From the IMG/VR virus record IMGVR_UViG_3300037087_000086, positions 1 to 34,376 of that record: a DNA stretch of 34,376 nucleotides; one strand, 5' to 3'. The translations under genes were made by a program, and so were the position numbers. Under the pieces are notes generated by a model. That model saw only the letters and a program-made list of their open reading frames with translations, was not told the DNA's origin and did not search any database. Source of the stretch: a virus. This document shows, piece by piece, positions 3,083-34,347 of the stretch. How positions within the stretch are numbered: the first letter of the stretch is position 1; each line of letters starts with the position of its first letter.

Positions 3083-3348
3083 AACTGCCTCGCATCACGA
3101 GCGAAGATATCTTCGGTATGGATCTTTCAACGCACCCCCGCGAGATCGAAATCACGTCCTTCGTCGACCTACCCGTCGCGCAGATTGCCCCGGCCCGCTT
3201 CCCCCGCGAGACCATCGCAGATATCGAGCGCGCCATCGTAGACCGCGGCTGGCGATACGGTGCCCGCAAATGCCGCATCACCGTCGAGCGTGTGCTCTCC
3301 GCAAAGCGCCCGACGACCCGCATGAAAGCGAGTATTGAATATGTCTGA
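3079..3348 (+). CDS. Hypothetical protein, 89 aa
   Basis: I do not recognise a family. The ATG at 3079 overlaps the previous stop by 4 nt, which decides the start. The protein is charged, without membrane segments, and contains ARFPRETIADIERAIVDRGW and an R/K-rich C-terminal half. It is followed by an 8-nt overlap (ATGTCTGA) with the next gene. It lies between the connector candidate and the portal, a place where phages often carry small non-structural genes. Confidence 0.6.
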   Translation: MKLPRITSEDIFGMDLSTHPREIEITSFVDLPVAQIAPARFPRETIADIERAIVDRGWRYGARKCRITVERVLSAKRPTTRMKASIEYV

Positions 3349-6934: not shown

Positions 6935-8175
6935 TGGCTGACCGGCTGCTGCTCGAATACCCTACCAAGATCCTCCTCGAAACGGCAGACAGCCTTCTTC
7001 TTGAGGACGGCACATTCCTCCTCAACGAGGCATCTGCTGCATCGGCCACGGACGCGGTCCAGCTCCAGGACGCCAGCGGCGTCATCCTCCTTGAAGGCGC
7101 AACGACTGTAGCCTACACCCTCACCGCGCAATTCGGCGCTTTCGCCTTCTCCTCGCAAACCGCCGGCCTCGTCGTCGCACGCACACTCTCCGCGTCTCAG
7201 GGCTCCTTCACCCTCACGCCGAAAACCGTCACGCTTACCGTCGCCCGCAAAGTAACGGCTACCTTCGGCGCATTCGTCCTCACGAGCGAGACCGCATCCC
7301 TAACTGTCGCCAGACTTCTTTCAGCCTCCTATGGCGCTTTCACGCTGACGCCCGAGACCGCAGGACTGAAAGCCGCGCGAACGCTCACGGCTACCTTTGG
7401 CGCGTTCACCTTCACCGGAGAATCCGCTACGCTCCTCTGGGCTACGGCCTCGCACGCCTATGAGCTGACCTCACTCTACGGCTCCTTCGCGCTCACCGCG
7501 GAGAACGCTACCCTTGCCGTGGCCCGCCTCGTGTCCGCTACTTACGGCTCTTTCACGCTTTCCGCGCAGACCGCGGGTATCACCGTTGCGCGCACGCTGT
7601 CCGCGGCTTATGGTGCATTCGCCCTTTCCTCCGAGACCGCCGAACTCTCCGTCGGCCACTGGCTGAACGCCGCCTACGGAGCATTCACGCTCACCGCTGA
7701 GTCCGCGGACCTCTCCGCTGCCCGAATCCTCACCGCCGACTACGGAGCCTTCACCCTATCCGGCCAGGATGCGGCGCTCACTTATCACTCGGCAAGCCAG
7801 GTCGACTACGTGCTGGACGCCGAGACCGGATACTTCACGCTGTCGGGCTCCGACGCGGGACTCATGTACGGCGCGCTGCCCGCTGCCGTCAAGCCTCCGC
7901 GCGAGGAGGGCATCCCCGATTCCTTCTCCCGCGGCCTTCCGAGCCTCCCCTTCCGCCCGCGGCCCCGGGAGGCAGTCCTCTACGCGCTCAAGGCAAAGAC
8001 CGGACGCCTGCACCTCACCGGCCGCCCGGCAACGCTCGGCCTCGGCCGCACGCTTTGGACGACCGGCGCCCGCTACACGCTCAAGGGCAATGACGCTGAG
8101 CTTTCCATCACGCGCAAGGCTCCCCAGCGCGCGCGACAGCTCGCCGCACTACTCAGACTTACGGAGGCCGCATGA
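6934..8175 (+). CDS. Tandem 22-residue beta-repeat protein
   Basis: A 413-aa protein. An N-terminal part rich in LLLE/ILLE motifs (about 1-55) is followed by eleven tandem units with the approximate consensus R-x-L-[ST]-A-x-[FY]-G-[AS]-F-x-L-[ST]-x-[EQ]-[ST]-A-x-L-x-x-A (about residues 61-312). Units 5 and 10 carry 5-6 residue insertions that end in a Ser/His-containing turn. A proline/arginine-rich linker and two degenerate units close the protein. The repeats predict a solenoid of short beta strands, suggesting a surface or fibre-like virion component; no enzymatic motif is seen. The ATG at 6934 overlaps the previous TAA by 1 nt. Confidence 0.75.
   Translation: MADRLLLEYPTKILLETADSLLLEDGTFLLNEASAASATDAVQLQDASGVILLEGATTVAYTLTAQFGAFAFSSQTAGLVVARTLSASQGSFTLTPKTVTLTVARKVTATFGAFVLTSETASLTVARLLSASYGAFTLTPETAGLKAARTLTATFGAFTFTGESATLLWATASHAYELTSLYGSFALTAENATLAVARLVSATYGSFTLSAQTAGITVARTLSAAYGAFALSSETAELSVGHWLNAAYGAFTLTAESADLSAARILTADYGAFTLSGQDAALTYHSASQVDYVLDAETGYFTLSGSDAGLMYGALPAAVKPPREEGIPDSFSRGLPSLPFRPRPREAVLYALKAKTGRLHLTGRPATLGLGRTLWTTGARYTLKGNDAELSITRKAPQRARQLAALLRLTEAA
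7114..7869 (+). repeat. Coding repeats, eleven units of about 66 bp
   Basis: These bases encode the eleven 22-residue units of the protein above. The GAF/GSF core (for example TATGGAGCATTCACG-type codons for YGAFT) recurs every 66 bp, with two longer units of about 81-84 bp. Units differ at many synonymous positions, so the array is old or has been diversified rather than freshly duplicated. Confidence 0.75.
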
Positions 8176-10227: not shown

Positions 10228-10653
10228 ATGTCACGTTACTCAATGGGGTTTCGCACGACGGCAACCGCAAACGCAGTCCTTGAAATCATTGGAGGGGTCG
10301 GCTCCCGTTCCAAGCTGGTAGAGATCGGACTCACGATCAACGCGCAGACGCTGACGCCGGTCGGCATCGGATACCCCGCTGCAATCGGGATTACGCCGAC
10401 AACGCCCGTGACCCTTCTCTCGGAATCCAACAATTCCACCATCTCCGTCACGAGTGCGCTGGCATGGGCGACGCCTCCCACATCCCCGACGTATTTCTAC
10501 CGCCGCGCAACACTCGGCCTCGGCAGCGATGAAATCGTCTGGCGCTTCGAGGATGAGGGCGGCGGACTGCTCCTGCTTCCTGCCACTTCAATTGTGCTTT
10601 GGTTATTCGCAACAGGCTCCGTCCTCGACGGCTGGTACACGGTCGAGCAGTGA
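10228..10653 (+). CDS. Phage structural protein of unknown role, 141 aa
   Basis: RBS GGGAGGG precedes the ATG. The protein is beta-rich and hydrophobic, with FRTTATANAVLEIIGG, SKLVEIGLTINAQTLTPVGIG and an aromatic C-terminal strand (DEIVWRFEDEGGG and later GSVLDGWYTVEQ). This pattern, an N-terminal FR-x-A segment followed by a glycine/proline turn-rich domain, occurs in conserved small virion proteins of environmental phages. No precise function is known. Its stop overlaps the GTG of the next gene. Confidence 0.6.
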   Translation: MSRYSMGFRTTATANAVLEIIGGVGSRSKLVEIGLTINAQTLTPVGIGYPAAIGITPTTPVTLLSESNNSTISVTSALAWATPPTSPTYFYRRATLGLGSDEIVWRFEDEGGGLLLLPATSIVLWLFATGSVLDGWYTVEQ

Positions 10654-11159
10654 GCGAGCCGCGCCTCCTCATGTTCCATGACGCCGCGGAGGCCGAGCGC
10701 TGGCAGGATGCCCTCGACTTCGCCGGCCTTCCCGCCCAGTGCGCGGTATACGACGATCCGTTCAAAGACGACCGCGGCTACTGGCAGCCTCCGCGATGGC
10801 ACTGGCATGAGATCGAACGCGACGGCTACACTAAGCGCGTCTACATCATCGACGGCGGCTGGTACCGGACGAACGTCGACAACAATTTCGACGGCGGTGG
10901 CAACCACGGCGCTTACCCCGAAATCCCTCCCGATTGCATCTATGTCGAAGCCAACAACGATGAGGGGCAATGGGATGCCGCGATCATCGGCGACCACCAC
11001 GAGACGCCCGAGGACATCCGCATGGCCGACGACTGGCAGCAGAACTACGAGGAGGCGCACGGCCACGCCATCACCGAGGAGCGGGCGCAGCGTGATCCTC
11101 TGCGCGACCCCCGCGTGATCGCCGACCCCGGGGTATCATCAGGTGAGAACGCATCATGA
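10650..11159 (+). CDS. Acidic hypothetical protein, 169 aa
   Basis: The GTG at 10650 is chosen because it forms a GTGA overlap with the preceding stop and gives VSEPRLLMFHD; a longer in-frame version would run back through the previous gene. The protein is rich in D, E, W, H and Y (for example PRWHWHEIERDGYTKRVYII and EGQWDAAIIGDHHETPEDI). No family is recognised and no membrane segment is seen. It is coupled by ATGA to the small regulator gene that follows, so the two are probably co-translated. Confidence 0.6.
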   Translation: MSEPRLLMFHDAAEAERWQDALDFAGLPAQCAVYDDPFKDDRGYWQPPRWHWHEIERDGYTKRVYIIDGGWYRTNVDNNFDGGGNHGAYPEIPPDCIYVEANNDEGQWDAAIIGDHHETPEDIRMADDWQQNYEEAHGHAITEERAQRDPLRDPRVIADPGVSSGENAS

Positions 11160-11320
11160 CCGCAGAAGATATCAAAGCGCTCCGCGAACGCCTTGACCTT
11201 TCCCGCCGCGAGCTTGCCGCGCAATTGGGCGTAGCCAAGCGCACCGTCGACCGATGGGAACAGGGGTATGGAAATCCGAATTGTTCGGCCGAAAAAATCC
11301 TCGAATCACTCGATAGATAA
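11156..11320 (+). CDS. Tiny XRE-family regulator, 54 aa
   Basis: A one-domain helix-turn-helix protein: MTAEDIKALRERLDLS, recognition region ELAAQLGVAKRTVDRWEQG, then a short helix. This is the core XRE/Cro fold with nothing added. It resembles the - strand regulator at 32935-33120 (20 of 54 aligned positions identical by eye, no gaps). It overlaps the previous gene by ATGA, so it would be made together with structural and lysis proteins. Directly downstream (11348-11367) lies an operator-like dyad before the protease gene. I infer that it binds this dyad family, perhaps as a late repressor or a Cro-like switch; the sequence does not show which. Confidence 0.8.
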   Translation: MTAEDIKALRERLDLSRRELAAQLGVAKRTVDRWEQGYGNPNCSAEKILESLDR

Positions 11321-11340
11321 CCCTGCGCAGTTTGCGTATC

Positions 11341-11370
11341 TTGTAAACTACCCCGTGCACCGTGTAACTT
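11341..11370 (+). promoter_or_regulatory. Candidate promoter of the protease-capsid operon
   Basis: TTGTAA (11341-11346) and TAACTT (11365-11370) are spaced by 18 bp. The ATG of the protease gene is at 11380, 9 nt after the -10 box, and no Shine-Dalgarno sequence lies between. The spacer is an operator-like dyad. Confidence 0.5.
11348..11367. promoter_or_regulatory. Operator-like dyad, site C
   Basis: The site reads CTAC-CCC-GTGCAC-CGT-GTAA. Its left part, including 2 preceding bases, is identical over 15 bp (AACTACCCCGTGCAC) to site D in front of the - strand XRE gene 22 kb away. It lies 28 bp behind the stop codon of the 54-aa XRE gene. Confidence 0.7.
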
Positions 11371-11379
11371 TCTCTCAAC

Positions 11380-12759
11380 ATGCGCGAGCAACTGTACGCT
11401 TGCGAACCCAACCATCTTCTCGCCTACCTTGAGCGAATCGAAAACGCTTCCGATGCCGACGTCAAGATAGCGGCCGCCTATGGCAACCATGACGAGGACG
11501 ATCCCCTTGACGATATCTACCAGGAGGACGGCGATGAAGCGACCGTAAAAGTCACGGGCATGCTGACACAGGGCCCGTTCCCGTTTATCGCGCGCCTGTT
11601 CGGCATCGAGGGCACCAGCTACCAGACCATCGGCGCCGCGCTGGACAAGGCGAAAACCAACCCCGTCATCAAGCGCCTGCACCTTGCGGTGAACTCTCCC
11701 GGCGGCGAGGCGGGCGGAGGCCTCGATCAGCTCTGGGGCAAGATCCGCGCATGGGGCAAAAACTGCCGCGCGACCAACCTCTCCCTTTGCGCATCCGCCG
11801 CCTACTACCTCGCCTCAGCCTGCGACAAGATCAGCGCCGCATCGCCCATGTGCGAGCAGGGATCAATCGGAATCATCGCCGCGGGCATCGACGACAGCGA
11901 GGCGATGAAGCGCGACGGCAAGAAGAAAATCACGCTCACCTCGAAGAACGCCCCGAACAAGGCAATGGGCTTCGACTCGAAGGACGGCCGCGACCGCCTG
12001 CAGGCCCGCATGGACGCCCTTGAAGGCATGTTCCTTGCGCGCGTATCCGAAGGCCGCGGGCTTCCCGTCGACTACATCAAGGCGAACTTCGGACAGGGCG
12101 CCGTGATGATGGCCGAGCACCCGAAGGGCAGCGACGCCTACGACAGCCCGTGCGCGCTTTCCGTGCGCATGATCGACTCGGTGGGCTCACCAGCCATCCC
12201 CGACAGCAACTCTCGAAAAATGGGCATGCAGATGCACGCCTCATCCAACGGAGGGAAGAAAATGAACCTGAACGAATTGTTCGCGGCCAACCCCGACGCC
12301 AAGGCCGAGTTCGACACGGCAATCTCGGCCGCAACAGCCGCGGGCGCCAAGAGCGTGCAGGCGCGCATCGATGCCGCCAAGCCCTTCCTCGCCTTCCAGG
12401 TGACCAAGGATGGCTACAACGAAGCCGAAGTAGACCAGATCGCCAAGTGCGCCATCGAAGTGATGGCAGGAGTAGAAGAGCCTTCCGGTCTTCGCAGCTT
12501 CGTGCGCATGGTTGATCTCCAGAAATCACAGCGCATCCAGGCCGCCGCGGAGGCCGAGACCCATGAGCAGGGGGAAACCCCGGGACACCTTTCCACCCCC
12601 GACGATGCGCTCATGGCCGAGGCCGCGAAGTTCAAGATCGACGTCCCCGCTTTCCTCAAGGCGTGTGCCGATCAGAAGCTCGACCCGGTAACGGCGCTCA
12701 CCGCCGAGATCGAAAACGCCAGGCGCTCCGCGGAGCTCGCGCTCAAGGCGCAGGGGTAA
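11380..12759 (+). CDS. Head maturation protease (S49/gpC type) with C-terminal scaffold
   Basis: A 459-aa protein with the SppA/S49 fold of lambda gpC: NSPGGE at residues 105-110, the likely nucleophile Ser139 in LCASAAYYLAS, and GSIG at 161-164; Lys189 in TSKNAPNK is a candidate base. It would cleave scaffold and other head proteins inside the prohead. From about residue 295 the protein becomes a helical, Ala/Glu-rich scaffold domain with its own internal start (next entry), as in lambda C/Nu3. The ATG at 11380 lacks a Shine-Dalgarno and sits 9 nt after a -10 box, so a leaderless message is predicted. The N-terminus (REQLYACEPNHLLAYLERIE) is a usual gpC-type start. Confidence 0.9.
   Translation: MREQLYACEPNHLLAYLERIENASDADVKIAAAYGNHDEDDPLDDIYQEDGDEATVKVTGMLTQGPFPFIARLFGIEGTSYQTIGAALDKAKTNPVIKRLHLAVNSPGGEAGGGLDQLWGKIRAWGKNCRATNLSLCASAAYYLASACDKISAASPMCEQGSIGIIAAGIDDSEAMKRDGKKKITLTSKNAPNKAMGFDSKDGRDRLQARMDALEGMFLARVSEGRGLPVDYIKANFGQGAVMMAEHPKGSDAYDSPCALSVRMIDSVGSPAIPDSNSRKMGMQMHASSNGGKKMNLNELFAANPDAKAEFDTAISAATAAGAKSVQARIDAAKPFLAFQVTKDGYNEAEVDQIAKCAIEVMAGVEEPSGLRSFVRMVDLQKSQRIQAAAEAETHEQGETPGHLSTPDDALMAEAAKFKIDVPAFLKACADQKLDPVTALTAEIENARRSAELALKAQG
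12262..12759 (+). CDS. Nested capsid scaffold (Nu3-like)
   Basis: An in-frame internal gene in the protease: ATG at 12262 is preceded by GGAGGG at 12250-12255 with a 6-nt spacer, far stronger than chance within a coding region. The product is 165 aa, begins MNLNELFAANPDAKAEFDTA and is mostly helical. In lambda the scaffold Nu3 is made in the same way from the 3' third of gene C. The scaffold would direct coat assembly and later be degraded by the protease. Confidence 0.75.
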   Translation: MNLNELFAANPDAKAEFDTAISAATAAGAKSVQARIDAAKPFLAFQVTKDGYNEAEVDQIAKCAIEVMAGVEEPSGLRSFVRMVDLQKSQRIQAAAEAETHEQGETPGHLSTPDDALMAEAAKFKIDVPAFLKACADQKLDPVTALTAEIENARRSAELALKAQG

Positions 12760-13356: not shown

Positions 13357-13851
13357 ATGGCAATCCAGAACAGCGGAATCAATACCACATACCCGTTCAT
13401 TCTCTACCAGGACGGGAACGCGCATATCCGCGATAACGAGACGCTCCTCACGGACGGCGCGCGCACCGTTGCACTCGCGCAGTTCACGATCATGTCATAC
13501 ATCCCCGCGGCGACCGCGGCGCTCTCGAAATGGGTGCCGTGGACGAGTGATCACCTCGCGGGCACCACCGGCACACAGCGTCCGCGCGGCATCCTGATGT
13601 CGGACACCGTGACCGCCGCGCAGCTTGCGGCAGGCGACGTGACGGGCATCTCGATCCTCACGATGGGGCCGATCACTATCGACGCCTCACAGCTCGTGTT
13701 CGATGCGGGGTCCACGGGGATTCTCGCGCTGAATACTCTGTACTCGATTCCGACGGTTCCGACGAACAGCGCGCTGAACGCCGAGGACTACCTGAATATG
13801 TTCGGGATATTCTGCGCCACTACGCGCCAGGCCACGATCCACGAGAATTAG
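13357..13851 (+). CDS. Head decoration protein, gpD-like
   Basis: A 164-aa protein with RBS AAAGGAG. The central part GTQRPRGILMSDTVTAAQLA, followed by AGDVTGISILTMGPITIDASQLVF, fits the pattern of lambda gpD-type decoration proteins, which trimerise on the expanded capsid and stabilise it. It lies directly before the major capsid gene, the standard D-E order. The first 90 residues are longer than in lambda gpD (110 aa in total). Confidence 0.75.
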   Translation: MAIQNSGINTTYPFILYQDGNAHIRDNETLLTDGARTVALAQFTIMSYIPAATAALSKWVPWTSDHLAGTTGTQRPRGILMSDTVTAAQLAAGDVTGISILTMGPITIDASQLVFDAGSTGILALNTLYSIPTVPTNSALNAEDYLNMFGIFCATTRQATIHEN

Positions 13852-27707: not shown

Positions 27708-28883
27708 ATGCCGATAGTACAGCTCACCACGCAGGAACAGGTCGATCAGAACATCGCCAACCTCGAATCGCGGCTCAATCAGACCACCCCGGCCGCGGAC
27801 AAGGCCTATAATCGCGTCATCGCCACCATGGAGGCGCAGGGGCAGACCGCGCTTGCCAAGTACGCCGCCGACCGAATCCTTGCGGTGCTCGCGCAGACGG
27901 CGAAGGGCGCCGACCTCGATCTTCTCGGCGGTGAGTACGATACCCTGCGCCATCAAGCGACGGCCGCGGTCCTCTCGGTCACGCTCACCGGCACAAACGC
28001 CACGGTCATCCCGGTCGGCACGATCATGGTGGGACTGCCGAACTCGGCGCTGTACACGGTCACCACGGGCGGCACCATCGCACTCGGGACCGTCACCCTT
28101 GCCCTTACCGCGCAGGCGGCAGGGTCCTCGGGTAACCTGAACAACGCCGACACCCTGACCTTGCAATCGGCTATCGCGGGCGCTTCGGGGATCCCCACGG
28201 TTGCCTCCACCACTACCACCGGCGCCGACGTCGAAACCGACGACGCCTACCGGCCGCGTGTGCTTGACGCCCAGCGCGCGCAAGCCACGGGATCGAATGC
28301 CGCAAGCTACCGCCTGTGGGCGCAGGGGGTATCGGGTGTAGTTCGCGCATACCCCTACTCAGGGGCGCCGACCGGCGTGAATCCTTCGGAGCCTCCGATG
28401 CGCACCGTGTACGTCGAATGCGACACGAGCATTCAGGCGGACGGAATCGCCCCCGGGGGCCTCATCACGCAGGTACGCACGGCGATCACCACCGACCCGA
28501 ATACCGGGCTTGCCCGGCAGGACCTCGGGCTCACCGATGGCACGCTCTACGTCCAGGCGATCACGCGCACGGCGATCTACGTTCAGATCACGGGTCTCAA
28601 CGTCCCCTCGGGCCAGATTGCGGCCTGCCAGACGGCAATCGCGGCAGCACTCACCACGTACCTTCTGGCGGTCACCCCGTTTGTCACGGGCGTCGATCCT
28701 ACCTTCGGCAGAAACGACTCGATCACGAACCTCTCGATCTCGAAGGTCGTGCAGGCGGTACTCATCGCCTACGGCGCCGCGGCGTCTAACATCGGATTCG
28801 GGTTGACGGCGATCACCTTCTCATCGACGTACACCGTCGGGCAGGGGGAAAAGACGAAGCTCGGAGCGGTCTCATATGTCTGA
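27708..28883 (+). CDS. Baseplate J-like protein, Mu gp47-like
   Basis: A 391-aa protein. Visible: N-terminal helical part with KYAADRILAVLAQTAKGADL, a strand with AAVLSVTLTGTNATVIPVG, the EPPMRTVYVECDTSI segment and the C-terminal NDSITNLSISKVVQAVLIAY, in the order seen in baseplate J/gp47 wedge proteins. It follows gp46 and overlaps gp48 by 8 nt (ATGTCTGA). RBS is GGAGAGGG just before the ATG. Confidence 0.88.
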   Translation: MPIVQLTTQEQVDQNIANLESRLNQTTPAADKAYNRVIATMEAQGQTALAKYAADRILAVLAQTAKGADLDLLGGEYDTLRHQATAAVLSVTLTGTNATVIPVGTIMVGLPNSALYTVTTGGTIALGTVTLALTAQAAGSSGNLNNADTLTLQSAIAGASGIPTVASTTTTGADVETDDAYRPRVLDAQRAQATGSNAASYRLWAQGVSGVVRAYPYSGAPTGVNPSEPPMRTVYVECDTSIQADGIAPGGLITQVRTAITTDPNTGLARQDLGLTDGTLYVQAITRTAIYVQITGLNVPSGQIAACQTAIAAALTTYLLAVTPFVTGVDPTFGRNDSITNLSISKVVQAVLIAYGAAASNIGFGLTAITFSSTYTVGQGEKTKLGAVSYV

Positions 28884-31443: not shown

Positions 31444-31480
31444 AAAAAGCGCCGACTCTGAGCTCACCTCTCATCGGCGC
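31442..31480 (-). terminator. Rho-independent terminator of the lysogeny module
   Basis: GCGCCGA (31449-31455) pairs with TCGGCGC (31474-31480). On the - strand this hairpin is followed by seven T residues (A at 31442-31448). It ends the leftward transcript; together with the neighbouring hairpin it forms a compact convergent terminator. Confidence 0.8.
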
Positions 31481-31483
31481 CCT

Positions 31484-31517
31484 GCCCCCGTCAGCGATGG
31501 CGGGGGCTTTTTTATTT
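31484..31517 (+). terminator. Rho-independent terminator of the late operon
   Basis: GCCCCCG (31484-31490) pairs with CGGGGGC (31501-31507), followed at once by TTTTTTATTT. It closes the long rightward transcript behind the fibre genes. Its T tract includes the last codons of the leftward gene ending at 31512. Confidence 0.85.
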
Positions 31518-31735: not shown

Positions 31736-32938
31736 TCACTTCATCACCCACATCTGCTGGTCGGCGCTGAAACTGCTGACGATTGTGCTTGCCGTATCCA
31801 TCTGCCAGAGCGTGCCCGCCTGATGATAGTATAGCGCGCCCTCGATCAGCGACGGCTCAAGGGTGACCGCCTGCGCCATGCCCGTCGTTCGGTACCCGTC
31901 ACCCTGATAAAGAGGAGTAGCAGTGTGAAAGTTCACACCATCATTAGTTTCAAGGGGTGCAAGAGTATCTGTAATTGGTGTGTATTTAATGAGAAATCCA
32001 GAGACGCACTCAATAAAGTAAATGGAGTCTGAATCCGAATACGCAGAGAGCATAACGGGTGATTGCCCGCCATCATGATAGATAAATCCAGTGGCGGTCA
32101 CAAGTGGAGGAAATGTGCTTGCAAACTGCTTGAGCGCATTCGCGTAGGTCGTGAAGGTATGCGCGGTCGGGTTCCACATCTGCCCGATGCCATCGTACCA
32201 ATTGCCGTCGGCGGCCTGTATCCACGGCTGCCCGCCCCAGTCATTCACGTTGCCCCCGGTCGCGGTCACCGAATGCGAGCCCGTCTCATCGTAGACCGTG
32301 AGCGTGTTCGGAGTGCCCATGTCGGGGACGTAGAACAGCGGCCCGTCGGGGATCGCCCACTCGATTTGCGCATCGGTGAGCGCGCGGCTGATGTCGTGGA
32401 AATTGCCCTGATTGTCCACGGCGATGATATCGCCATTTTCCACGGTGTAGCTGTGGTCGTAGAACCACTTGCGCGTGTGCCAATCGCCTGACTCCACGCC
32501 GTCCTGCCAGATGCGCGTGTACCCTCCCCCTGACTGCGGAGGGGAGTAATCAAGGGCGAAGGCATCGGCGTTGGATATCGTCTGGAAGGTATAGACCACC
32601 GGGTCCCCGACGACGGCCACACCCGAGGGATCGGCGGGGAGGTTCATGGAGGAAGTCACACCCCCCGCGGCATCCAGGAAGTACAGCGTCTTGTCGACGG
32701 CGATCTTGCGCCCATTGCCGTGGACTGCCGCACCTGTTTTCCATGTCACCGCGTGCGTGCCATCCCAGAGCCTGACCGTGGACCCGTCGTAGAGCGCGGC
32801 GAGCACGGGACCTGTCAGACCTGCAGGAGGCGGTACCACGGGAGTTGTGGGCGGAGGTGTAGGCGGGAGAACGTTGATGATGGGCGCGGGGCACCCTACG
32901 ATGGCGAGAATGCAGACGATTCCAAGAATCCACTTCAT
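31736..32938 (-). CDS. Phage-encoded lipoprotein, beta-propeller-like
   Basis: A 400-aa protein that starts MKWILGIVCILAIVGC: a lipoprotein signal with lipobox IVGC at Cys16. A proline-rich linker (about 17-45) follows, then short strand-turn units with W/D/G (STVRLWDGTHAVTWKTG, KWFYDHSYTVENGDIIAVDN, GQPWIQAADGNWYDGIGQMW, YYHQAGTLWQMDTAS) that suggest a propeller. The ATG overlaps the XRE stop by 4 nt, with AAGGAAG upstream, so it is made in the lysogen with the regulator. Bases about 31917-32112 are much richer in A+T than the rest. I infer a lysogenic conversion or superinfection-exclusion lipoprotein; no known toxin or enzyme motif is seen. Confidence 0.78.
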   Translation of the reverse strand: MKWILGIVCILAIVGCPAPIINVLPPTPPPTTPVVPPPAGLTGPVLAALYDGSTVRLWDGTHAVTWKTGAAVHGNGRKIAVDKTLYFLDAAGGVTSSMNLPADPSGVAVVGDPVVYTFQTISNADAFALDYSPPQSGGGYTRIWQDGVESGDWHTRKWFYDHSYTVENGDIIAVDNQGNFHDISRALTDAQIEWAIPDGPLFYVPDMGTPNTLTVYDETGSHSVTATGGNVNDWGGQPWIQAADGNWYDGIGQMWNPTAHTFTTYANALKQFASTFPPLVTATGFIYHDGGQSPVMLSAYSDSDSIYFIECVSGFLIKYTPITDTLAPLETNDGVNFHTATPLYQGDGYRTTGMAQAVTLEPSLIEGALYYHQAGTLWQMDTASTIVSSFSADQQMWVMK

Positions 32939-33120
32939 GATTTCCTTCCTTTCGATTCGTCGTCGATCATCTTCAGGAGGATCAGGGACGAGCCTTTCGG
33001 GTGCGCGACATCCTGCTCCCATGACTGAACGGCGCGGATGCTCGTACCCAGTTTACGCGCAAGTGAAACCTGCGTATATCCCCCGCGCTTCCGTATGGCC
33101 TTGATCTCTTTTCCTGTCAT
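32935..33120 (-). CDS. XRE-family regulator of the lysogeny module, 61 aa
   Basis: A one-domain helix-turn-helix protein: MTGKEIKAIRKRGGYTQ, recognition region SLARKLGTSIRAVQSWEQD, then HPKGSSLILLKMIDDESKGR. It resembles the 54-aa regulator at 11156-11320 (20 of 54 aligned residues identical by eye). It lacks the protease-like C-terminal domain of LexA/CI repressors, so induction by self-cleavage is not expected. No Shine-Dalgarno precedes the ATG; a TAGTAT -10 box lies 6 nt upstream, so its mRNA should be leaderless. It is coupled by ATGA to the lipoprotein gene. A repressor role is inferred. Confidence 0.85.
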   Translation of the reverse strand: MTGKEIKAIRKRGGYTQVSLARKLGTSIRAVQSWEQDVAHPKGSSLILLKMIDDESKGRKS

Positions 33121-33126
33121 GGGTTG

Positions 33127-33155
33127 ATACTATCGCTTATTGTCAGTCCCGTCAA
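33127..33155 (-). promoter_or_regulatory. Promoter of the XRE-lipoprotein operon
   Basis: On the - strand TTGACG (33155-33150) and TAGTAT (33132-33127) are separated by exactly 17 bp, the best promoter in the window. Only 6 bases separate the -10 box from the ATG at 33120. Confidence 0.75.
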
Positions 33156-33175
33156 CTACCCCGTGCACTCTGTAG
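33156..33175. promoter_or_regulatory. Operator-like dyad, site D
   Basis: The site reads CTAC-CCC-GTGCAC-TCT-GTAG, with perfect outer arms and a perfect GTGCAC core. It lies directly upstream of the -35 box of the leftward XRE promoter, a position more usual for activation than for blocking, unlike sites A-C. Confidence 0.7.
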
Positions 33176-33467: not shown

Positions 33468-33743
33468 TTACCTCCGCTTTGTCGCCGAGTAGCGAATGTC
33501 GCGGAAACTCCGCATCGCGGCGAGCCTCCCCTCCTCCGTGCATCGGTACCAGTGATAGGCCGTGTCGGAATCCTCCGTCCTGTATTGTTCGACAAGCCCG
33601 GCGGCATCCATGGCAACAAACTCGGGGTCGCCAGGATTCACGGCCGCGTAATCTCGGTACGGCTTCGGGACGCGCTTCGACGGATCGTTGATACCAAGCA
33701 TTTGGCGAAGGGTGTGCAACTGCTCTTTCGTCGGTTCACTCAT
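33468..33743 (-). CDS. Conserved phage hypothetical protein, 91 aa
   Basis: A protein beginning MSEPTKEQLHTLRQMLGIND, with PKPYRDYAAVNPGDPEFVAM, AGLVEQYR and an aromatic HWYRCTEEGRLAAMRSFRDI. The same layout (helix LR-x-MLGI, RDY motif, late YR-x-TEEG) is familiar from small phage proteins of unknown function. Its ATG overlaps the recombinase stop by 4 nt. No membrane segment. Confidence 0.7.
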   Translation of the reverse strand: MSEPTKEQLHTLRQMLGINDPSKRVPKPYRDYAAVNPGDPEFVAMDAAGLVEQYRTEDSDTAYHWYRCTEEGRLAAMRSFRDIRYSATKRR

Positions 33744-34255
33744 TTCACGTCCCCCCATTCAAGATCGTCGTGCACGTACAGGTCCCCGGTGATCGCCACG
33801 CTCGAATGCCCAAGGTAGCGGCTGACCGCCGTCAGGCTCTTGCCCGCCGCTATCATGCGCGTTGCAAACGTGTGCCGCATCGCGTGCGCCGACAGCGTGC
33901 GCCCAAGTGCCCTATGACTTGCCCGCCGTATGCGGTTCGTGATCGCCGTGCGGCTGCCGTGGCCCGTGAAATCCACCACCCGGTCATAGTACACCGTCCG
34001 CACCTTGCTGCCCTTGCCCAGAAGGCGGATGGCGTAGTGATCGCCCACGGGTGCGATGTCCTCGGCCCTGATGCCCAGAGCCTCGCTGATCCGCGCGCCC
34101 GTCTCCAGGAGAAAGCGCACAAGCTCCCGATCCCTCCGCGATAGCACGCGCAGAAGCCGCTTCTCCTCGGATGCGGAGAGCACCTTCGCCGTGCCCACGC
34201 CCTTGTTTGCGCGCCGTGCTTTCTTTTTCCTATGCTTCCAAAACGCCAGTTTCAC
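33740..34255 (-). CDS. Minimal tyrosine recombinase (integrase), 171 aa
   Basis: The catalytic domain of the tyrosine recombinase family: Arg55 in TGARISEAL, Lys81 in LLGKGSKVR, His124 and Arg127 in LSAHAMRHTF, His150 in LGHSS and the nucleophile Tyr160 in DLYVH. All catalytic residues are present, but only a basic 25-residue N-terminus precedes the domain; the usual core-binding and arm-binding domains (150-200 aa) are missing. It starts with GTG; AAGGA lies 9 nt upstream. It would catalyse site-specific integration or resolution. The att site is not recognisable. It leads the leftward gene group. Confidence 0.87.
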   Translation of the reverse strand: MKLAFWKHRKKKARRANKGVGTAKVLSASEEKRLLRVLSRRDRELVRFLLETGARISEALGIRAEDIAPVGDHYAIRLLGKGSKVRTVYYDRVVDFTGHGSRTAITNRIRRASHRALGRTLSAHAMRHTFATRMIAAGKSLTAVSRYLGHSSVAITGDLYVHDDLEWGDVK

Positions 34256-34318: not shown

Positions 34319-34347
34319 ACCGTAGCACCACGTGCACCCGGTGTCAA
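34319..34347 (-). promoter_or_regulatory. Promoter of the integrase group
   Basis: On the - strand TTGACA (34347-34342) and TACGGT (34324-34319) are exactly 17 bp apart. The predicted start leaves a leader of about 55 nt before the GTG at 34255, with AAGGA inside it, so this message is not leaderless. Confidence 0.65.
34325..34344. promoter_or_regulatory. Operator-like dyad, site E (weaker)
   Basis: The site reads GCAC-CAC-GTGCAC-CCG-GTGT. The GTGCAC core and N3 spacing are those of sites A-D, but the outer arms are CAC/GTG rather than TAC/GTA. It fills the spacer of the integrase promoter, as site B does in its promoter. Confidence 0.45.

Follow-up and report, generated by a model that had tools for sequence, protein, structure and literature searches.

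Five copies of an 18-base palindrome, TACnnnGTGCACnnnGTA, occur in the window, which is the entire IMG/VR record of 34,376 bases, and sites of the same kind recur at matching positions in related phages. As judged from gene order, promoter-like sequences and conservation, there is about an even chance (probability near 0.5) that these palindromes are the operators of one phage repressor circuit acting over the late promoters. Two very small XRE proteins of 54 and 61 residues, encoded near such sites, are the candidate readers. In those temperate phages that are best understood, early promoters are silenced by the lysogeny repressor, and an activator or an antiterminator then brings on the late genes. 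Here the late promoters themselves seem to bear a common operator, in seven related records, together with putative minimal repressors of 54-61 residues. If this is true, late-gene timing would become directly testable by means of a single short DNA element and a pair of very small proteins; the palindrome would also be a marker for the same circuit in other metagenomic phages.

The Two Small XRE Genes and Their Neighbors

The genes considered here, including the putative promoter of the second XRE gene, are the following:

10650 to 11159, plus strand: gene for a 169-aa protein, GTG start, ATGA overlap with orf54
11156 to 11320, plus strand: orf54 (XRE1), 54-aa single-domain Cro/CI-type HTH protein
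11380 to 12759, plus strand: S49-type head maturation protease (phrog_53), first gene past site A
31736 to 32938, minus strand: lipoprotein-like gene downstream of orf61, its start overlapping the orf61 stop
32935 to 33120, minus strand: orf61 (XRE2), 61-aa single-domain Cro/CI-type HTH protein
33127 to 33155, minus strand: putative orf61 promoter TTGACG-17-TAGTAT, 9/12, six bases before the ATG
33740 to 34255, minus strand: tyrosine recombinase of 171 aa, downstream of site C

The original prediction of a 54-aa XRE gene coupled to a hypothetical gene has been borne out. The orf54 reading frame closes the gene block that begins behind promoter E, its ATG overlaps the stop of the preceding 169-aa gene (ATGA at 11156), and its product scores 40.1 bits with Pfam HTH_3 (PF01381), above the gathering cut-off of 23, while orf61 scores 34.5 bits against the same cut-off. 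Both proteins have the same best PHROG, phrog_2104, whose function is not annotated. An AlphaFold2 model of orf54, the one XRE protein modelled, agrees with the expected fold, being a compact four-helix HTH (predicted helices 3-13, 17-24, 28-35, and 43-53; mean pLDDT 92.4), and P22 c2, HigA2, and MqsA are among its structural matches. Against a phage collection, orf54 gave one weak match (E 0.1), and a genome scan with orf54 and the L003 sequence returned 53 loci, all or nearly all of them actinomycete HTH proteins matched over some 43 residues; three of these were entered in the tree described below and fell in a different group. As single queries in viral_contigs, the protease, the 61-aa XRE protein and the 169-aa protein found no relatives.

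Pfam, PHROGs, and NCBIfam contain no family that matches the 169-aa protein with an E of 1 or less, and the structure predicted for it (mean pLDDT 43) was set aside. The protein carries a conserved stretch, YEEAHGHAITEER. An HExxE metalloprotease-like motif, seemingly common to this protein and its L003 counterpart, was discarded as it fails to line up in a three-row alignment. The 171-aa tyrosine recombinase apparently lacks most of the ordinary phage integrase N-terminal domain, and early genes are missing at the right end of the window.

The Palindrome in the Window

The five copies begin at 88 (D), 2725 (E), 11349 (A), 33157 (B), and 34326 (C), with no strand assigned:

88 to 105: site D, TACGTTGTGCATATGGTA, 1 mismatch, over the TerS gene start (GTG at 94 or ATG at 100)
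2725 to 2742: site E, TACGGCATGCACGTAGTA, 1 mismatch, in the gap between TerL and the gpW-like gene, flanked by TTGCAA (2717-2722) and TAGTAT (2741-2746)
11349 to 11366: site A, TACCCCGTGCACCGTGTA, in the gap that separates orf54 from the protease gene
33157 to 33174: site B, TACCCCGTGCACTCTGTA, whose end lies one base ahead of the -35 in the putative orf61 promoter
34326 to 34343: site C, CACCACGTGCACCCGGTG, 2 mismatches, inside a possible integrase promoter, TTGACA-17-TACGGT

The operator-like dyad that had been predicted 28 bp past the orf54 stop is thus present as site A, and it has AACTACCCCGTGCAC in common with site B. At up to 2 mismatches, TACnnnGTGCACnnnGTA is found in six places in the window (88, 2725, 11349, 28394, 33157, and 34326); the match at 28394 lies within a gene and scores under 9, while all five sites scoring at least 9 are intergenic or at a gene start, against a null of 6 per Mb. 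With simple longest-ORF gene calls, the gaps between called genes total just 630 bases in the window, and four of the six gaps of at least 50 bases contain a site. As for the other two, gap 1-63 directly precedes site D over the TerS start, and gap 31444-31511 resembles a terminator and has no site.

Sites with at most 1 mismatch number four in the window, compared with a mean of 0.025 (maximum 1) in 40 dinucleotide shuffles for this particular motif. For a motif not named beforehand four is unexceptional, as in the shuffles the top-scoring palindrome out of 4096 has 4.1 such sites on average and at most 5, and at 3 mismatches there is a modest excess (14 against 7.4 expected, with 1 of 100 shuffles as high). 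Statistics of the window alone are insufficient for a post hoc motif, and recurrence in relatives is decisive. Among the papers listed, searches of the literature text returned no occurrence of TACNNNGTGCAC, GTGCACNNNGTA, or TACN3GTGCAC, matches to CCCCGTGCAC that look unrelated by title, and none for GTGCAC combined with "LexA-binding motif"; titles and the starts of abstracts held no description of such an arrangement.

Measured from the contig end, site D occupies 88-105 in three cases (the window, L094, and L095) and 87-104 in L099. This near-constant distance suggests that a physical genome end is probably where these contigs begin. The TerS gene probably starts at 94 or 100 rather than at the TTG at 64.

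Placement of the Sites Within Promoter-Like Sequences

The elements of the putative promoter A are:

11341 to 11346, plus strand: -35-like TTGTAA, separated from the -10 by an 18-bp spacer filled by the palindrome
11365 to 11370, plus strand: -10-like TAACTT

A promoter leading into the protease gene had been proposed at this point. Taken alone, TTGTAA-18-TAACTT is a weak candidate, with 7/12 matches and no promoter found at 9/12 in 11000-11600, but its position is backed by the relatives. Eleven sites in front of gpW-like and protease genes were examined (two in the window and nine in relatives). In eight of them a TT-type -35 starts 7-8 bases ahead of the palindrome, and a TAnnnT -10 has its last base 4 bases past it, the two hexamers being 17-18 bp apart. 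The exceptions are the E promoters of G007 and G006, which are better 11-12 bases downstream (TTGTGC-17-TATCTT), and site A of G019, which has no acceptable -35. The same rule is obeyed by site F of G019 and the divergent B2 of G007, and C differs slightly. In most such promoters the start codon follows 6-9 bases after the -10 (exceptions are G019 A, at +71, and the E gene of the window, at +23 from the site), and the sequences suggest that the mRNAs may be nearly leaderless.

Site D is placed differently, covering the presumed -10 and the start codon, and in L093, L095, and L099 TerS begins GTG-CAC-nnn-GTA. The orf61 promoter is covered in two phages, the window and G007, and in each the last base of the palindrome is one base ahead of TTGACG. 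The spacers are of ordinary length, 16-18 bp, which favors repression over activation of the MerR type.

An alternative in which the palindromes are activator sites, with a small XRE protein turning the late promoters on, has been considered here. The poor -35 hexamers (TTGYAA) next to better -10s would suit it, and other phages do have late-gene activators that use dyad sites. A protein bound within these spacers, or at D over the presumed -10 and start codon, would nevertheless block the polymerase, and we regard activation as improbable.

Recurrence in Related Phages

Relatives were recruited by terminase similarity and not by the motif, an alignment of four terminases leading to 43 loci. 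Exact sites were found in L093 (601, 3355), L094 (88, 3049), L095 (88, 3023, 11578), and L099 (87, 3043), at the positions seen in the window, namely the TerS start, the TerL-gpW gap and, where covered, ahead of the protease. Terminase similarity alone was sufficient to find G005, G006, G007, and G011 (G006 and G007 were reached via the motif as well), while G019 and G020 were recruited through a motif scan of viral_contigs, their other sites lying outside the seed match. Altogether, 23 sites are distributed over seven records (window 5, G007 5, G019 4, G006 3, G005 2, G011 2, and G020 2), with matching positions at the TerS start, the TerL-gpW gap, the head-protease gap and the promoter of the tiny XRE gene. 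The weight matrix used for scoring was trained on 21 of these 23 sites, so that independent support comes from the siteless relatives and a Markov null. Further matches scoring at least 9 are at 32694 in G007 (9.1), 742 (11.6) and 31425 (10.3) in G019, and 2004 in G011 (10.1).

Whole-record scans of 16 records placed exact sites only in G005, G006, G007, and G011. G010 and G004 have one place each at 1 mismatch; at 2 mismatches G013, G014, G016, and G017 have one place each and G018 two, all of this being about the level of the reversed control. G001, G008, G009, G012, and G015 have none at up to 2 mismatches, and no match scoring at least 9 was present in the examined stretches of 10 other terminase relatives or in the entire G001 (L066), in which the 139-base Rz-protease gap holds neither XRE1 nor a site.

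Of the 18 loci found on scanning viral_contigs for the pattern, four (L070, L076, L077, and L079) are relatives of this phage. The other 14 (L071-L075, L078, and L080-L087) were rejected as a coding coincidence: their contigs are unrelated by terminase, and the exact pattern probably falls by chance within coding regions, mostly of one conserved family, a large MSLHKFAEQ/MSLHALAT-type gene. The "inside a gene" flags of that scan include spurious antisense ORFs, since the gene calls were simple longest ORFs.

The XRE gene of the head cluster recurs in G006, G007, and L003. A homologue of the 169-aa gene precedes it in L095 (70% identical) and L003 (distant), while in G006 the gene overlapped by XRE1 is an unrelated one, with no 169-aa gene beside it. 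In L003 the only good site, TACGACGTGCACATGGTG at 3085-3102 (score 20.1), lies within an apparently coding region, and there is no gap behind XRE1. The same gene pair, which the original proposal suggested looking for in related prophages, is seen in G007, where XRE1 (49% identical) stands before the protease and overlaps a homologue of the 169-aa gene, XRE2 (38%) is upstream of the lipoprotein gene (56%) and preceded by an 86-aa ORF, and sites lie beside both XRE genes, one of them at 13569 by the divergent gene next to XRE2. By sequence, the XRE1/XRE2 pair is conserved between the window and G007. Where the leftward early block of G007 begins, no site is present even when 2 mismatches are allowed. 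The four exact sites of G019 are at D, E, A, and a further place, but neither XRE1 nor any HTH_3 match was found in its 38 kb; this record ends before the orf61 region.

Relationship Between orf54 and orf61

The two proteins align without gaps, as claimed, with 20 of 53 positions identical. Recent paralogy is not supported, given that orf61 is 45% identical to plasmid HTH/NadS-family proteins and 45% to a Pantoea phage cI, against 38% to orf54. Within XRE1, the window protein is 76% identical to that of L003 and 49% to that of G007, and the two XRE2 proteins are 38% identical. XRE1 of G007 is 38% identical to XRE2 of the same phage and 35% to orf61, while orf54 and XRE2 of G007 gave no alignment. 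When 20 short sequences were placed in a tree, XRE1 (88/91) and XRE2 (80/87) each formed a group. The two groups are not sisters in the best tree, although a joint clade is not rejected (p-AU 0.25). The phylogeny thus separates them weakly, and sisterhood of orf54 and orf61 is neither supported nor rejected by it. In an earlier tree of 22 rows, Aca2 of ZF40 grouped weakly with XRE1 on a long branch.

Resemblance to Known Regulatory Systems

The best sequence-profile match of orf54 (2e-12) is HigA2 of Vibrio cholerae (PDB 5j9i, 5jaa, and 8a0x), to which the model is also structurally close (TM 0.93, rmsd 0.9, 33% identity), and the two have a similar recognition helix, R-T-(L/V)-(E/D)-x-W-E-Q-G. 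The HigA2 operator begins downstream of the -35 and extends across the -10, and in this it is like the sites described here (PMC11006873). It differs from them in sequence and spacing (TGTACGC-N5-GCGTACA) and is a single operator rather than one of many, and HigA2 has a disordered toxin-binding N-terminus where orf54 consists of the HTH alone. MqsA (TIGR03830) and NadS (NF041265) are the top NCBIfam matches of both window proteins, with scores that fall short of the curated cut-offs (40.3 for orf54 and 32.6 for orf61 against 61.8; 34.1 and 31.8 against 60), and neither window protein has the zinc domain; no toxin partner emerged for either.

An antitoxin role for orf54, with the overlapping 169-aa gene ahead of it as toxin in the manner of HigBA or MqsRA, would accord with the gene order and 4-base overlap in the window, L095, and L003, and with nearest solved structures that include the HTH domains of the HigA2 and MqsA antitoxins, but we consider it very improbable, as in G006 XRE1 follows an unrelated gene and the constant toxin neighbor is thus lost, the 169-aa protein has no family match and orf54 has no toxin-binding extension.

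The likeness to lambdoid Cro/CI lies in two small HTH proteins near a common family of palindromic operators in one phage. The difference is that the genes, at 11156 (plus strand) and 33120 (minus strand), are some 22 kb apart rather than adjacent and divergent, and that the apparent targets are the late operons and the integrase, not early promoters. A classical switch of this type acts at early promoters. A split Cro/CI-like pair, as originally suggested, is plausible with regard to function, at late rather than early promoters, but finds no support in ancestry or layout. Cluster A mycobacteriophages offer another parallel, with one repressor type and many genome-wide sites (PMC9283540, PMC6550527). 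Their stoperators are asymmetric and stop elongation, while the sites considered here are palindromic and in core promoter-like positions, which sets them apart from stoperators. The Aca autorepressors, which are anti-CRISPR-associated (PMC9410906), resemble orf54 in being small phage HTH proteins that end the operon they would control; Aca2 and Aca10 are among its structural matches. The presumed targets in the present case are several late promoters.

Proposed Circuit and Candidate Readers of the Sites

In the proposed repressor circuit, a small XRE dimer would occupy the core promoter of each late operon and of the integrase gene, thereby blocking RNA polymerase. The targets would be TerS (D), the gpW/portal block (E), the protease/head-tail block (A), and the integrase (C). 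The orf54 protein would be a minimal repressor whose gene closes the block that promoter E drives. As late transcription builds, it would fill these sites too, so that late expression is damped or timed, like Cro or an Aca-type autorepressor. The likely lysogeny-side partner is orf61, with its own promoter, and a dimer at site B, just upstream of the -35, need not block that promoter and might even help it. We infer binding by either protein, repression and the division of labor from the placement and conservation of the sites. The most specific version, in which the late genes of a group of phages from uncultured bacteria are controlled directly through an operator in nearly leaderless core promoters, read by orf61 in lysogeny and by orf54 from the late operon as a split Cro/CI-like pair, is tentative and judged possible, at clearly less than even odds.

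The evidence as to which protein reads the sites is divided, and for this reason confidence in the repressor circuit is no higher than one half. In favor of orf54, its gene adjoins a site A-type palindrome in three records, and XRE1 retains both R29 and an acidic residue at position 32, which are aligned to the DNA-contacting Arg68 and Glu71 of HigA2; against it, G019 has sites without XRE1. From alignments and the HigA2 text, HigA2 residues R68, E71, N72, and R77 map to R29, D32, R33, and Y38 of orf54, the same positions being R, E, F, and R in XRE1 of G007, R, Q, S, and V in orf61, and A, R, A, and A in XRE2 of G007. In favor of orf61 is the fixed site at its promoter in the window and G007, and against it is that the presumed contact residues vary while the operator stays constant. 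One operator-like family of sites does lie near both genes. The palindrome is not a private operator of orf54, as its five copies in the window lie mainly at late operons.

It is conceivable, if somewhat doubtful, that only orf61 reads the palindromes, repressing the late genes in lysogeny and controlling itself through site B, and that orf54 is an accessory protein with another target (the 169-aa gene or a host gene) whose position is incidental. The persistence of sites in G019 in spite of the missing XRE1, the identical geometry of site B at the XRE2 promoter in the window and G007, and the lack of the orf54 block at the equivalent place in L066 would all fit. It is opposed by the presumed contact residues, which are conserved in XRE1 and not in XRE2 across phages with the same operator, and by L066, in which a small HTH-like ORF lies by the integrase and yet neither sites nor XRE1 are present.

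It is unlikely that the sites belong to a host-encoded regulator, such as a SOS repressor of the LexA type, or to a phage regulator outside the contig, the XRE proteins being unrelated to them. Such an owner would explain why sites persist in G019 without a recognized HTH_3 protein, and the window does lack early genes. Nonetheless, 11 terminase relatives lack the sites, in the whole record or in the stretches examined, and both tiny XRE genes have sites beside them in the window and in G007.

One terminase relative has a repeated element of another kind at the corresponding gaps. In L066, 3110-3174 (TerL-gpW gap) and 7865-8003 (Rz-protease gap) have their own common element, TTTTTTGACGTTTGCTCTTGA, one copy of which carries an inverted arm, and a different regulator may act at those operons.
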